Source: Saccharofermentans sp.
GTDB lineage: Bacteria > Bacillota > Clostridia > Saccharofermentanales > Saccharofermentanaceae
Assembly: GCA_024403855.1 (NCBI GenBank)
Contig: JAKSRC010000007.1
Coordinates: 1-64,000 of the forward strand
Direction of reading: 5' to 3'
DNA: 64,000 nt
Shown here: one piece after another, positions 9,022 through 14,622 of the stretch
How positions within the stretch are numbered: the first letter of the stretch is position 1
Layout: every line of letters starts with the position of its first letter
Position numbers and translations under genes: made by a program
The notes under the pieces: generated by a model
The model's database searches: none
What the model was told of the DNA's origin: nothing
What the model saw: the letters and a program-made list of their open reading frames with translations, nothing else

Positions 9022-9966
9022 TCAGAAACGGCCACCGCCACCGCCGGAGAAACCGCCTCCGCCGCCACCGGAGAATCCGCCTCCGCCGCCACCGGAGAAG
9101 CCACCTCCGCCACCACCGGAGGAACCACCGCCGGAGAAACCACCTCCGCCACCACCGAAGAATCCTCCTCCGGAACTTGATGACTCATGGTGAATGACTC
9201 GCTTGTTTTTGTATGTATCAACCTTTTTGATCATTCTGTTTATGGGCGTACCATAAGTGTACATGGGCGGACGAGGGTCAAGCTTTCTCTTAGGCGTTGC
9301 CACATTGGCAATGAAAAGAGCCAATACAACAGGAATAACCATAGTAAAGATAACGATAGCGCCATAGCTCTTGTATGAGAAATCGTTAAGCTTCGCGATG
9401 ATGTTTTCAACTGCAGCACCATACTGACCAAAGCTGAGCAAATCGAGATTGTTTCTGAAAATTGAATAACAATCGTCATCGTCGACAGCGAAATGTGCCG
9501 TGCCGTATGTATAAAGCCAGAAGAATCTTCCACCGTCGTAATCCAGAGTAAGATCGATAAGGATACAAACGCCTGAATTGTTTTGGAGAGGAACAGAAGT
9601 AATGCTGTCATTATAGAAATCTTCAGCAAATCTTACTTCATCATCATCCTCGTTAGTGTATCCGGCGCCCTTATCTCTGGTAGTAACTACAACTACATTG
9701 ATGTCCTTCTTTTTAGAAAGCATCTCTGCGGCATCGGTAATTCTTTCAAGTTCATCACTTGTAAAGATACCGGCGTTATCTACGACTTTGACACTCTTCT
9801 TCGGAGAGAGATTCATGAATACATAGAACGCAAGGCTTACGATAATAATTGCAATAAGTGCGATTCCAATTCCTACGGAAGCACCGCTAAGCTCAGACAT
9901 AACGGAGAGCTTCTGGCCGGCATCTTTATTCTGATGCAGTTCGTTATAATCAACGTTTTCGCTCAT
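9022..9966 (-). CDS. TPM-domain membrane protein with long Gly-rich tail
   Basis: Protein of 314 residues: an N-terminal membrane helix (about 31-53), a TPM/YgcG-type domain (VVDNAGIFTSDELERITDAAEML onward, about 60-190), a second helix (about 203-223), and a C-terminal tail of about 45 residues made almost wholly of Gly, Ser and Phe in GGGFSGGG units. TPM domains have been linked to photosystem repair phosphatases in plants and to membrane proteins of unknown role in bacteria. The start overlaps the zinc-ribbon gene stop by four bases, so the two are translated together. A second TPM protein in this window (56.9 kb) has its Gly-rich segment at the other end. Confidence 0.8.
   Translation of the reverse strand: MSENVDYNELHQNKDAGQKLSVMSELSGASVGIGIALIAIIIVSLAFYVFMNLSPKKSVKVVDNAGIFTSDELERITDAAEMLSKKKDINVVVVTTRDKGAGYTNEDDDEVRFAEDFYNDSITSVPLQNNSGVCILIDLTLDYDGGRFFWLYTYGTAHFAVDDDDCYSIFRNNLDLLSFGQYGAAVENIIAKLNDFSYKSYGAIVIFTMVIPVVLALFIANVATPKRKLDPRPPMYTYGTPINRMIKKVDTYKNKRVIHHESSSSGGGFFGGGGGGFSGGGSSGGGGGGFSGGGGGGFSGGGGGGFSGGGGGRF
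9025..9180. repeat. Degenerate tandem repeat encoding the Gly-rich tail
   Basis: About 155 bases of imperfect repeats built from GCCGCCACCGGAGAA-like and CCGCCTCC units, strongly GC-rich against the AT-rich surroundings. It lies inside the TPM coding sequence and is explained by repeated Gly codons. Such tracts are prone to length change by slippage. Confidence 0.7.
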
Positions 9967-11063
9967 CCCCAGAACCCCCTCATGATCATACCAAGAATAA
10001 ATCTTGTAATAACGGCAAGGATACCCAGAACAACGAAGAAGAACATAGTCTTCTTTACAGGGCTTACAGGAACTTCTCCTGCTACCTCACCTGTCTGTCC
10101 GTTCATCGCAAAATAGTAGAATTTATTGTGGTACTTGTAAGCCATGAACCACACCGGAAGAAGCGCATAATTTGCTTCCATTGAATCAATAGCGCTCAGA
10201 TTCTTTGTGAAAGAATAAGAATCATATTTACCAGTCAAAGAACTCTTCAAGCTCTGATCAATAGCCGCCACGCCTCTTTTGGTTGCACGGTTAGCAAGCT
10301 TATCAGGTGACTGGTCAAATTTATCAGCATAAAAACCCGGGAGATATCTGTAGTCGTAAGGAATAAGTCCCTTAAAATCAAACGGTTCGATTGCTTCCAT
10401 AAGAGCATCATCGATTCTTGTCTCACCGTCGAGAGGAACATTCTCCCATCTGAGCTTTGCGTGTCTTTCAAAATCAAAATTTTCAATAATCTCATCGTTG
10501 CCGCTAAAATACTTCTTCACACCCTTACCGGTTGCATTAATAGTCGCATTGATATTAAAAAGCCAGAACGGAACATAAAGTCCTGTCATCTTGGCAATAT
10601 TCTTCTTCGAGACAAATCCGAACGGTGTCCACTTACCCTTGCCTGCCCACTTTATGAAAGCTTCTTCAGCAGACTGTCTTGAGTACTTGAACGGTATCAT
10701 GTACTGCGGCTGGAACTTCTCAGTGAGTCTTTTACCAACGAGCGCCGGTGAACCGCAGAAAGTGCAGAAAGTTGCTGCTGTATGAGCATCTGTTACAAGC
10801 TTTGCACCGCATGCATTGCAGACAAATTCTGTCTGCTCGGGTGCCGGCTGAGATTCCTCCGGTTGCTGTGTCTCTGCTTCAGGAGTTTGCTGCTCTGCTG
10901 TAGGCTCAACGGGTGTTGGTTTCTGTTCCAATTCTCCAACCGTTATCGAGCTTAACTGTTCCGGATCAAAAGAAGAACCGCAGCTTGCACATTCAAGCTT
11001 TTGAGTATCTGCATTAAGTGTCAGATTCGCCCCGCAGTTTGGGCATTTAATCGTATCTGCCAT
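9963..11063 (-). CDS. Zinc-ribbon membrane protein
   Basis: Protein of 366 residues with two zinc ribbons, CPNCGANLTLN...CASCGSSF (about 8-31) and CNACGAKLVTD...CTFCGSPA (about 82-105), separated by a Pro/Gln/Glu-rich linker. The middle region is soluble, and a single membrane helix (about 338-360) closes the protein. Its architecture matches TFIIB-type zinc-ribbon proteins of Clostridia whose function is not known. It overlaps the TPM gene by four bases, and the pairing of a zinc-ribbon protein with a TPM protein points to a joint membrane complex. I cannot assign a biochemical role. Confidence 0.78.
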   Translation of the reverse strand: MADTIKCPNCGANLTLNADTQKLECASCGSSFDPEQLSSITVGELEQKPTPVEPTAEQQTPEAETQQPEESQPAPEQTEFVCNACGAKLVTDAHTAATFCTFCGSPALVGKRLTEKFQPQYMIPFKYSRQSAEEAFIKWAGKGKWTPFGFVSKKNIAKMTGLYVPFWLFNINATINATGKGVKKYFSGNDEIIENFDFERHAKLRWENVPLDGETRIDDALMEAIEPFDFKGLIPYDYRYLPGFYADKFDQSPDKLANRATKRGVAAIDQSLKSSLTGKYDSYSFTKNLSAIDSMEANYALLPVWFMAYKYHNKFYYFAMNGQTGEVAGEVPVSPVKKTMFFFVVLGILAVITRFILGMIMRGFWG

Positions 11064-11108: not shown

Positions 11109-11831
11109 TCAGACCTCACTATCCATAAGAGCCTTCAATGTCTTATCGTGACTCCTTACTGAGTGCGGATATTCAATCTTCTGGTACTCTTTACCCTTCT
11201 GCTCACAGATAATCTTAACGAAAGAATCAGCAATTACAGGATTCTTAAGAAGCACCGGACCTATGAGACTTATTCCAAGAAGATTGTTCTTGCGTGCTGC
11301 ATCTTTATGCATAGGAACATTACCGATTACCTTTACGACATCAAATGCGAGATCATCTTCAACATCAGGTGTACCTGCTCTGTTGACGAAGCCTACATAT
11401 TTGTCGCCTGTTGTATTGTCAGACAAAATTACATCGCCTGTATAACGCTTTTCGGACTGTTCCTTGAACGAATAATTAAAGATTCCCAGGCCTTCAATAA
11501 AGCCTGCATCAGGTGTTGTAATGCCCTTTCCAAGAATGTCGTAGCTGTTGCCTGTAAAAAGCATCGGGACGCCCTTTTCGAGTGCCTCAATATGGCCTGA
11601 CTTAAACCTGCCAAGGTGCTTAGCAGCAAGATTTCTACTGGACTCAACACCTGAACCCATATAAACAAAATCTGCATCTGCAAAACTGATATCGTTGTCT
11701 GTAATCGTGCGCTCAATTATCTCGACTTCAAAGCCCTGGTCTTCGAGCATCTTTGTGAGGATACGGACATTAGCATTATCGCCGTAAAGACTCATAAAAT
11801 CAGGATACAGGTAAAGGATCTTTACGTTCAT
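11109..11831 (-). CDS. GatD-like class I amidotransferase domain lacking catalytic Cys and His
   Basis: Homologue of GatD, the glutaminase half of the MurT/GatD lipid II isoglutaminyl synthase that amidates D-Glu in the peptidoglycan stem. Alignment by eye is straightforward: LYGDNANVRIL near the start, the segment PMLFTGNSYDILGKGITTPD...EGLGIF, and NLLGISLIGPVLLKNP. In GatD the nucleophile lies in ICGGYQ and the catalytic His in YLHGP. Here the Cys position is Gly94 and the His position is Ile190, so glutamine hydrolysis should be impossible. The frame is intact at 240 residues and overlaps murT by four bases, so this is not simple decay. It may act as a structural partner of the MurT-like ligase. 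Family confidence is high; the function is open. Confidence 0.82.
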   Translation of the reverse strand: MNVKILYLYPDFMSLYGDNANVRILTKMLEDQGFEVEIIERTITDNDISFADADFVYMGSGVESSRNLAAKHLGRFKSGHIEALEKGVPMLFTGNSYDILGKGITTPDAGFIEGLGIFNYSFKEQSEKRYTGDVILSDNTTGDKYVGFVNRAGTPDVEDDLAFDVVKVIGNVPMHKDAARKNNLLGISLIGPVLLKNPVIADSFVKIICEQKGKEYQKIEYPHSVRSHDKTLKALMDSEV

Positions 11832-13174
11832 GAAAGTTCCCTCCTTGTAACGAGCGAGAGAATCTTCTCCTTATCAGAAAAACATGTGATTACATAAAGG
11901 AATGAATCAAGATTCTTAGCGCAGTAATCAGCCGCATCGCTGACCTGCTCGAAAATCTCCACCTTGTCAGAAGCGGCTCCCGCAAGCTCGAATCTGATTG
12001 CCAGATCATCGCAATACTGACCTGCAAGAATGATCTTGTCGATACTCTCATCATTTAACTTCTCGAAATTAATATCCCAGAGCCAGCTTGAATCCGAAGT
12101 GTAGTATTTACGACTGATTGCATCAACGATTATCATGACGCTCTTCTTGCGCTTATCGTTGACTACGACATCGATTGAACGGTCATAGGATACAGAATTC
12201 TCGTGCTTGGAAAGAAGAAGTCTGCCGTTGAGATTGCCCAGTGTAAAATCAGAGATACGACCGGACTTTAAGATGTATCCGCCAAGAGCTTCAGCGACCT
12301 TCTCCGGCGCAATTCCGGCAATAACCGAAGCAGTATATGCAGCAAGGATATTGTAGCAGTGATAGATTCCCGTAAAGAAAACAGGAATATCGTACTTGCC
12401 GTCTATTGTGATGAAATCCTTGCCATCGACATTCTTAATCGAAGTAAGTGAATGATCGGTATTATGTCTTTCAAATCCACAGGAAGTGCACTTGAATTTT
12501 CCGATGTGATTGTAGTGGTAATATTCGTATTCCATCGGAGCTTTACAGATAGGGCAATACTTACCGTCGTTATAGATACCTTCGTGTGTATCCATATCGG
12601 TAGGAAGCTTATCAGCACCGAAATAAACCGTACCGGGTCTGTCCTTGCCAAAGCTTGCAACAAGCGGATCGTCGCTGTTAAGTATCAGCGTCATGTCGTC
12701 GTAGATTGCCTGGCCAATGACGCTCTTAATAAATTCCGGATGGCCATTTCTGGTCATCTGATCCCTGTAAAGGTTGTTAATAACGAAATACTTGGGATGG
12801 AAATGCTTGAATGTGTGTCTTGAATAACGCTCATCTGATTCAAGCAAAATAACGTCACTTTTGACCTTTCCGCTCATCGTGGAATCGCCTACGAGGAAAG
12901 TAACTACGCCTTCAATCTGATTGGAGCCTTCTTTGTTATAAGCAACCTTGAGGCCGTTACTCTTCAAAATATGAGCAATCATCTCGACAGATGAAGTCTT
13001 ACCGTTAGAACCGGTTACAGCTATGGAAAGCTCAGGAAGCTTAAGCTCGGATAAAATATCCGGGCAGATCTTGAGGGCATACTTACCTGGCAAGCTCGAT
13101 CCACGTCCGACAAGCTTGGCAAGTCCTCTTACAATTTTGCAAACAAGTATAGCTGTAAAAACTCTTAATTTCAT
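11828..13174 (-). CDS. murT: MurT-like Mur ligase (lipid II isoglutaminyl synthase subunit homologue)
   Basis: Mur-ligase family protein of 448 residues with a central ATPase P-loop TGSNGKTSSVEMI (about 55-67), a four-Cys zinc ribbon CPICKAPMEY...FKCTSCGF (about 207-235) typical of MurT, and a C-terminal DUF1727 region with the DSSWLWDINFE segment. MurT activates the D-Glu carboxylate of lipid II with ATP and accepts ammonia from GatD. Just before SWLWD this protein reads IIVDAISRKYYTSD, which does not resemble the Asn/Asp-rich active-site stretch I know from MurT. Together with the Cys-less GatD next door this suggests an altered reaction. The gene begins with an ATG only about two bases after its predicted transcription start and has no ribosome site. 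Confidence 0.82.
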   Translation of the reverse strand: MKLRVFTAILVCKIVRGLAKLVGRGSSLPGKYALKICPDILSELKLPELSIAVTGSNGKTSSVEMIAHILKSNGLKVAYNKEGSNQIEGVVTFLVGDSTMSGKVKSDVILLESDERYSRHTFKHFHPKYFVINNLYRDQMTRNGHPEFIKSVIGQAIYDDMTLILNSDDPLVASFGKDRPGTVYFGADKLPTDMDTHEGIYNDGKYCPICKAPMEYEYYHYNHIGKFKCTSCGFERHNTDHSLTSIKNVDGKDFITIDGKYDIPVFFTGIYHCYNILAAYTASVIAGIAPEKVAEALGGYILKSGRISDFTLGNLNGRLLLSKHENSVSYDRSIDVVVNDKRKKSVMIIVDAISRKYYTSDSSWLWDINFEKLNDESIDKIILAGQYCDDLAIRFELAGAASDKVEIFEQVSDAADYCAKNLDSFLYVITCFSDKEKILSLVTRRELS

Positions 13175-13331: not shown

Positions 13332-13394
13332 ATGGTTAATTTTTCATTTACATGGCGTGAGTTTTCATTTTTTGCCTTTACGAAGTTGGGGTAA
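13332..13394 (+). CDS. pheL: Phe-rich leader peptide of the pheA attenuator (20 codons)
   Basis: A complete small frame of 20 codons plus TAA. Six codons are Phe (TTT at 13341, 13347, 13362, 13368, 13371 and 13377), i.e. residues 4, 6, 11, 13, 14 and 16, ending in the cluster FSFFAF. This density far exceeds chance and resembles the PheA and PheST leader peptides of enterobacteria in logic, not in sequence. Its stop lies 3 bases before the antiterminator arm. The peptide's role is to sense charged tRNA-Phe: a ribosome stalled on the TTT codons stops short of 13398, while one that reaches the TAA covers roughly 13398-13406. The peptide itself probably has no function. Confidence 0.78.
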   Translation: MVNFSFTWREFSFFAFTKLG

Positions 13395-13397
13395 TTA

Positions 13398-13476
13398 GTT
13401 CACTGCATGTAAAAAAATGATTTGATTTACGTAATTACAGAGCCCCGCAGTGAACAAAGCTGTGGGGCGTTTTATT
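13398..13476 (+). promoter_or_regulatory. Two-state attenuator (antiterminator/terminator) of pheA
   Basis: Terminator: GCCCCGCAG (13442-13450) pairs with CTGTGGGGC (13460-13468; one G-U pair), loop of nine bases, followed by GTTTTATT. Antiterminator: GTTCACTGC (13398-13406) is a perfect nine-base complement of GCAGTGAAC (13447-13455), which takes bases from the left arm and loop of the terminator, so the two helices exclude each other. When Phe is short and the ribosome stalls upstream, the antiterminator forms and pheA is transcribed; when Phe is ample the ribosome at the leader stop masks 13398-13406 and the terminator forms. No T-box conserved sequence is present. Confidence 0.75.
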
Positions 13477-13491
13477 GCAAAGGAGAGCATT

Positions 13492-14622
13492 ATGACACAG
13501 AACCAGGCTGGCAAGAGAATCGAAGAGATCGATGAGCAGATCAGAGAGCTTTTCGCAGAAAGACTGGAAGCTAGTAAAGCTGCGAACGAGACATTGAGCA
13601 AGTCCGAGATTTCCCTCAAGAGCAAGCGCTATGAGAGAAGCTACCTTTCAGGACTTCAGAGCTCAAATTCACTGATCGACAACTACGAGCGCGTACTCTT
13701 TTCGACGATGTTCAACTTGAGCCACTCTTACCGCAATACAGAGTACGGCACAAGAACAGATCTCGCTGACAAAATTCATTATGCTCTTGAGACAACACCC
13801 AAAGAGCTCCCTAAGTCACCAATGGTCGCTTGCCAGGGCATCGAAGGCGCTTACTCACAGATCGCAACAGATAAGATCTTCAGCCACGCAAACATCATGT
13901 ATTTCAGAACCTTCGACGGCGTATTCCAGGCAGTTGAATCCGGCCTTTGCAAGTTCGGCGTCCTCCCTATCGAGAACAGCTCTTACGGTTCAGTAACACA
14001 GGTTTACGACCTCATGGTAGGCCACAATTTCCACATCGTAAAGGACTTCAAGCTCAGAATCAACCACAGACTTCTTGTAAATACTGGAACAAGCTTCGAA
14101 GATATCCGTGAGGTTTATTCACACGGTCAGGCAATCGGTCAGTGCAGCAAATTCCTCAAAGAGCACCCTGAGATCAAGGTAAACATCGTAGAAAACACCG
14201 CAATTGCAGCAAAGACAGTAGCTGATTCAGGCCGCAAGGACATCGCAGCTATCTCATCTTCTGACTGCCAGCAGCTCTACGGCTTGGTATCAGTAAAGAA
14301 TGACATCCAGAACACCGATAACAACTACACAAGATTCATCTGCATCACAAAAGAGCTCATGATCTTCCCCGGCGCATCAAAGACATCCGTCATGCTGGCT
14401 TTGGGCCACACTCCCGGCGCACTCGCTGACACACTTGCTAAGTTCTCCTCTCTGGGTCTCAACCTCACAAAGATTGAGTCACGTCCTATTCCCGGCAAGG
14501 ACTTCGAATTCATGTTCTACCTCGACTTCGAAGCTTCTGCTTACTCCGAGGAGTTGATCACTCTCCTTTGCGAGCTCGACGCTGATCCTACAGAATTCGC
14601 TTATCTCGGAACATATATCTGA
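13492..14622 (+). CDS. pheA: Bifunctional chorismate mutase / prephenate dehydratase
   Basis: Converts chorismate to prephenate and then to phenylpyruvate for phenylalanine synthesis. Residues about 1-85 form an AroQ-type helical chorismate mutase (RIEEIDEQIRELFAERLEASK). The prephenate dehydratase domain begins at about 97 (ACQGIEGAYSQIA) and includes the NYTRFICI motif with its catalytic Thr. A C-terminal ACT domain has TPGALADTLAKF and IESRPIPG, the Phe-binding GAL and ESRP motifs, so feedback inhibition by Phe is likely. A GTG at 13450 is in frame but lies inside the terminator hairpin; AAGGAGAG at 13480-13487 sets the ATG at 13492 (376 residues). Expression is under the leader-peptide attenuator upstream. 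Confidence 0.93.
   Translation: MTQNQAGKRIEEIDEQIRELFAERLEASKAANETLSKSEISLKSKRYERSYLSGLQSSNSLIDNYERVLFSTMFNLSHSYRNTEYGTRTDLADKIHYALETTPKELPKSPMVACQGIEGAYSQIATDKIFSHANIMYFRTFDGVFQAVESGLCKFGVLPIENSSYGSVTQVYDLMVGHNFHIVKDFKLRINHRLLVNTGTSFEDIREVYSHGQAIGQCSKFLKEHPEIKVNIVENTAIAAKTVADSGRKDIAAISSSDCQQLYGLVSVKNDIQNTDNNYTRFICITKELMIFPGASKTSVMLALGHTPGALADTLAKFSSLGLNLTKIESRPIPGKDFEFMFYLDFEASAYSEELITLLCELDADPTEFAYLGTYI

Follow-up and report, generated by a model that had tools for sequence, protein, structure and literature searches.

The MurT and GatD homologues of a Saccharofermentans genome form a coupled pair whose glutaminase subunit has lost both the nucleophilic Cys and the catalytic His, and whose ligase subunit keeps its own catalytic residues within a rebuilt cleft. 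The pair may form amides on the lipid-linked wall precursor without glutamine, with GatD as a required pseudoenzyme and ammonia as the most likely amine, a reading to which we give a probability of a little under one half (about 0.48). Whether the donor is ammonia or another amine, wall modification in this gut bacterium and its many relatives is probably independent of glutamine.

The murT-gatD Locus

The window is the whole stretch of 64,000 nucleotides that was analyzed. ORF calls place the pair on its minus strand, in agreement with the coordinates and the overlap of the sequence-only reading: gatD (11109..11831) encodes a pseudoglutaminase subunit of 240 aa and murT (11828..13174) an ATP-dependent Mur ligase subunit of 448 aa, so that the two genes share 4 bases. 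They are also adjacent in related loci. Overlapping genes and both folds are found as well in the MurT/GatD systems of S. aureus (6gs2/6h5e), S. pneumoniae (6fqb), and S. pyogenes (9sq9). In Pfam, GatD belongs to GATase_3 and MurT to Mur_ligase_M plus MurT_C. Unlike canonical MurT/GatD, however, the window pair misses the NCBIfam equivalog cut-offs by far (GatD 111 of 450 bits, MurT 211 of 800 bits). The source genome (2.08 Mb, 98.9% complete) contains one gatD and one murT; a search of it for a second copy of either gene, including the canonical pair that the sequence-only reading had proposed to look for, found none. The other class I glutaminases of this genome all retain Cys and His. The loss is therefore specific to GatD, and an organism-wide loss of the glutaminase Cys is excluded.

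Other elements surround the pair. On the plus strand, 5' of the prephenate dehydratase gene, positions 13332-13468 include a short ORF encoding a leader peptide rich in Phe, MVNFSFTWREFSFFAFTKLG, and a repeat, GTTCACTGC, that is able to base-pair with the 5' arm of the terminator hairpin at 13442-13468. This region looks like a pheL-type attenuator; it has no match in Rfam, and Phe-rich leaders of a similar kind occur in 24 of 25 related loci. The start codon of prephenate dehydratase is probably at 13492, not 13450. On the minus strand (9022-11063) lies a TPM-domain protein with a Gly-rich repetitive tail, adjoining a zinc-ribbon protein; about 30 related loci have both genes downstream of gatD.

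Loss of the Glutaminase Site in GatD

Alignment to the solved GatD structures (5n9m, 6gs2, 6fqb, 9sq9) bears out the two substitutions that had been read from the sequence. The nucleophile elbow ICGGYQ is replaced by TGNSYD, with Gly94 in place of the catalytic Cys94 (T93-G94-N95 codons, 11547..11555, minus strand), and YLHGP is replaced by SLIGP, with Ile190 in place of the catalytic His, His189 (I190-G191-P192 codons, 11256..11264, minus strand). A wider comparison covers 121 rows of the window type, 28 that are otherwise noncanonical and 46 that are canonical, corresponding to 95, 25, and 46 different sequences; some genomes are counted twice among the rows, which makes the numbers of different sequences more reliable. 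All 149 noncanonical rows (120 different sequences) have Gly at position 94, and all 46 canonical rows have Cys. The residues of TGN are each found in 120 or 121 of the 121 window-type rows. The His is present in 45 of the 46 canonical rows, and the window type has I, T, L, V, or S at its place. Q98, E149, and H151, found in 43 to 46 of the 46 canonical rows, are likewise missing from noncanonical GatD, whereas R129 and N150 are retained. A conserved Cys elsewhere at the active site would have overturned the sequence-only reading; among the 149 noncanonical rows there is none, the top Cys column reaching 57% (window type) or 61% (other noncanonical) at other sites.

The predicted fold is preserved. 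AlphaFold2 models were obtained as single chains, GatD and MurT separately, and in the GatD model (pLDDT 97.3) strand 90-93 and helix 94-100 form the elbow where the Cys would sit. Among PDB entries the model is closest to GatD (Z 28.8, rmsd 2.4 over 235 residues), followed by HisH (17.4), and human carbamoyl phosphate synthetase I (CPS1; 5dou) is also among the matches. In human CPS1 the glutaminase domain is dead, its Cys lost, and the synthase uses ammonia. The likeness is one of concept, in that a class I glutaminase fold persists after its Cys has gone; CPS1 differs in its unrelated synthase, its fused domains and its pathway. Window-type GatD thus has the fold of an active class I glutamine amidotransferase without the nucleophilic Cys, the catalytic His or other residues of the glutaminase site, and so is not expected to hydrolyze glutamine by the known mechanism. 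The description of the gene as otherwise intact holds for its coupling and predicted fold but not for the site itself, from which Q98, E149, and H151 have also gone.

Low dN/dS and the recurrence of the same motif in 120 different sequences exclude a pseudogene or a sequencing error. In close pairs, dN/dS is 0.04-0.13 for noncanonical GatD and mostly 0.02-0.06 for MurT. The median GatD/MurT ratio of amino-acid distances is 1.85 in window-type pairs vs. 0.70 in canonical pairs, which are mostly more distant; at matched MurT distance (0.4-0.8) the ratios are 1.84 and 0.78, given with no p-value because the pairs are not independent. Window-type GatD changes at roughly twice the rate of its MurT: it is under purifying selection but partly freed from constraint, and MurT is tightly held. 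This relaxation fits a scaffold role for GatD with the chemistry in MurT.

Single loci depart from these patterns. One GatD adjoining a canonical MurT has the Cys but an Asp for the catalytic His (YLDGP; locus L212), and one TGN-type gatD has an in-frame TAA inside the match (locus L097, genome G821).

A Conserved and Rebuilt Active Site in MurT

The MurT model (pLDDT 93.4, less certain around residues 351-360, with a mean of about 70) matches MurT best (Z 37.4), then pMurC (27.3) and MurC (26.2). The nearest Mur ligase outside MurT, pMurC, has a similar zinc-ribbon insertion but is longer and belongs to a different (pseudomurein) pathway. As in canonical MurT, the ATP, Mg and acceptor residues, the zinc-ribbon Cys and the SWxWD segment are present. 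Kept in canonical and noncanonical MurT alike are the GK of the P-loop (G55-SNGK-T60, 12995..13012; these and all following coordinates on the minus strand), N85, E112, D114, E115, D138, R142, the four zinc Cys, Y274, N275, R306, K323, and N326. In S. pneumoniae, changes of K59, N85, or D112/E113 almost abolish activity (PMC6085368). The GatD-contact segment SWLWD (S363-D367, 12074..12088), which belongs to an interface described earlier (PMC6113224), is likewise kept.

Around these residues the cleft is changed, its canonical motifs being replaced. R116 (12827..12829) is new beside the Mg/acceptor pair D114-E115, where canonical MurT has Ala; it is found in 120/121 window-type, 26/28 other noncanonical, and 0/46 canonical rows. 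The loop RDQMTRNGH (R137-H145, 12740..12766), whose counterpart faces GatD in S. pneumoniae (PMC6085368), keeps D138 and R142 and has His for E145. KHENS (K323-S327, 12194..12208; 119-121 of 121 window-type rows) is two residues longer than the canonical KNP. The canonical DNxADG motif, the DNxAD of which sits between the GatD triad and the ATP site (PMC6113224), is missing, with DAISRKYYT (D351-T359, 12098..12124) in its place; S354, R355, and Y357 occur in 121/121 window-type rows. The unusual stretch before SWLWD that the sequence-only reading had remarked on is thereby accounted for, KHENS being longer by two residues and DAISRKYYTSD containing an insertion. Near-invariant switches of the window type are A84S, A116R, D141T, E145H, the inserted H324-E325, P327S, G329S, N351D, S354-R355-K356-Y357, and T359, of which S84, R116, and H145 are common to window-type and sister-group MurT. 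Asp349 of the triad shared by the subunits corresponds to Asp361 in the window; it is Asp or Glu in the window type and mostly Asn in the sister clade. Set against the amino-acid-binding loops of MurC, KHENS and SRKYYT have the same strand order by eye, but profile alignment gives no support for a MurC-like amino-acid-binding site.

Distribution and Origin

The 59 genomes of the genus hold canonical GatD (CGG/HGP) and two kinds that lack both Cys and His: one resembles the window protein (47-77% identity, TGN and SLIGP), and the other reads TGNA and YLLGP. Of 398 genomes drawn from the whole phylum, 137 had a match; among the best 29 of these, the window aside, the only two without Cys and His belong to the window's own class. 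A class draw of 391 genomes added members across many families. Scanning named genomes with window-type MurT returned 506 encoded relatives, of which the best 80 all have TGN and lack the His wherever the second site is in view; named members include Saccharofermentans, Ruminococcus (R. bromii YE282), and Massiliimalia. The Thr-Gly-Asn signature marks a subfamily that, among the best phylum matches, is seen only in the window's own class.

In a MurT tree made by a quick search without the diagnostic columns, one change parts canonical from noncanonical rows (SH-aLRT 85 for the branch), and a single origin of the noncanonical kind is thus the simplest reading. The loss of Cys and His is real, as first proposed; it is not local, but an old feature of the whole subfamily. 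There are two main noncanonical groups, the window type, marked by KHENS and SRKY, and a sister group, marked by K..NA and WSEN. In one family GatD is of yet another noncanonical type (VGTS/VGTT and LGP; loci L196, L197, and L215), and two of the genomes with it also have a TGN-type pair. Two contigs titled Erysipelotrichaceae (L142, L143) have a MurT inside the Saccharofermentans/Ruminococcus group, and are perhaps mislabelled bins or the result of recent transfer.

Window-type and sister-group pairs occupy the same genomic slot within the genus, with pheA at one end (one case) and genes for a small protein, a glycosyltransferase, and an HD protein at the other. The canonical pair of the genus is located elsewhere, adjoining genes that by eye resemble those for a sortase and adenylosuccinate synthase. 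The shared slot suggests, with phylogeny uncontrolled, that window-type and sister pairs have one common role. That no canonical GatD was found alongside a noncanonical one in 30 re-searched genomes fits such a role; three genomes (G027, G703, and G787) bear two noncanonical pairs. No third conserved partner gene was found, and since neighbors differ among genera, a third gene is excluded as part of the unit, which consists of two genes.

A Possible Mechanism and Its Alternatives

How could a ligase work with a dead glutaminase? In S. aureus, MurT combined with a GatD that carries C94G, the substitution also seen in the window, loses Gln-dependent amidation of lipid II but keeps NH3-dependent amidation in vitro at pH 8.5; it does not use ammonia at pH 7.5, and MurT alone is inactive (Muench et al., 2012; PMC3266927). 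A MurT with a dead GatD can thus make an amide with an amine from solution, and GatD is still needed. By analogy, the window MurT would convert the D-isoglutamate alpha-carboxylate of the lipid-linked precursor into an acyl phosphate, which an amine from solution, most likely free ammonia, would then attack. Ammonia is the simplest donor, and human CPS1 offers a precedent in which a synthase that uses ammonia has retained a dead glutaminase domain. GatD, though not catalytic itself, would be indispensable for keeping MurT in an active conformation and for closing the site, and the natural family would have fixed the state of the S. aureus mutant. That mutant is engineered, however, with its His and Gln pocket intact, and its failure with ammonia at pH 7.5 means that the explanation requires an adaptation, in which R116, H145, KHENS, and SRKY, all new in MurT, would let ammonia work at neutral pH. 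The acceptor, lipid-linked D-Glu, is proposed from homology, and the loss of the DNxAD motif, a suggested stem-peptide contact, counts against this explanation. Some archaea have a MurT-like protein with no GatD whatever (PMC11915815), and differ in this from the window pair. Among the papers searched, none joins MurT, GatD, and Ruminococcus, and wall composition data for the host genera were not found.

The use of ammonia alone would hardly seem to call for so many new MurT residues under such strict conservation, which also counts against it. These residues bring in the main rival, a real if less favored possibility: the amine attached to the alpha-carboxyl of D-Glu would be larger than ammonia, such as glycine, another amino acid or a polyamine, and GatD would have become a scaffold because no ammonia is needed. 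R116, H145, H324, E325, and S354-R355-K356-Y357 are invariant in the cleft and absent from canonical, ammonia-using MurT, and pMurC and MurC, the closest Mur ligases outside MurT, attach amino acids. The walls of Micrococcus luteus carry glycine on the D-Glu alpha-carboxyl. Against the larger amine stand the lack of support from the profile comparison and the sister clade, which lacks KHENS and SRKY in the same genome slot and may fill the same role by other residues. Alternatively, the amide bond could still be made on an acceptor other than lipid-linked D-Glu (another residue or another envelope precursor), as the replaced DNxAD motif and the position of A84S and A116R next to acceptor residues would allow; the invariance of the acceptor-carboxylate residues N85, D114, and E115, and the fact that the noncanonical pair stands in for the canonical pair in related genomes, make this improbable.

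Two further readings have very little to recommend them. GatD might still yield ammonia from glutamine via a different nucleophile such as Thr93, which is present in 120/121 window-type rows alongside the retained R129 and N150. It is not strict in the other noncanonical rows (25/28), though, and the missing Q98, E149, H151, and catalytic His, the relaxed constraint on GatD and the abolition of glutamine use by C94S and C94G in S. aureus (for C94G, PMC3266927) make such a mechanism most improbable. Equally hard to credit is a pair that is decaying or serves as a non-catalytic structural or sensory complex. The faster evolution of GatD would agree with it, but the low dN/dS of MurT, its invariant catalytic residues and the retention of the pair across many genera would not. 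The structural or sensory complex had been put forward in the sequence-only reading, and is unlikely because none of the tested MurT residues for ATP, Mg and the acceptor varies. The proposal of neofunctionalization in that reading stands as regards the lost glutaminase, the changed MurT site and the maintained coupled pair, but not in the sense of a new product.

Significance

The amidation of D-Glu influences the cross-linking of the wall and the sensing of wall fragments by the host. With glutamine-independent amidation by ammonia as the preferred reading, the natural C94G state would turn a laboratory finding, an ammonia-dependent MurT with a dead GatD, into a biological one. A name given by homology only, glutamine-hydrolysing isoglutaminyl synthase, would be wrong for the subfamily. 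This subfamily of gut and rumen Clostridia, which includes Ruminococcus bromii, Saccharofermentans, and Massiliimalia, appears to have left glutamine as a nitrogen source or to have changed the substituent. If the joining of a larger amine were true, the stem-peptide chemistry of many gut Clostridia would be carried out by an enzyme not yet described.
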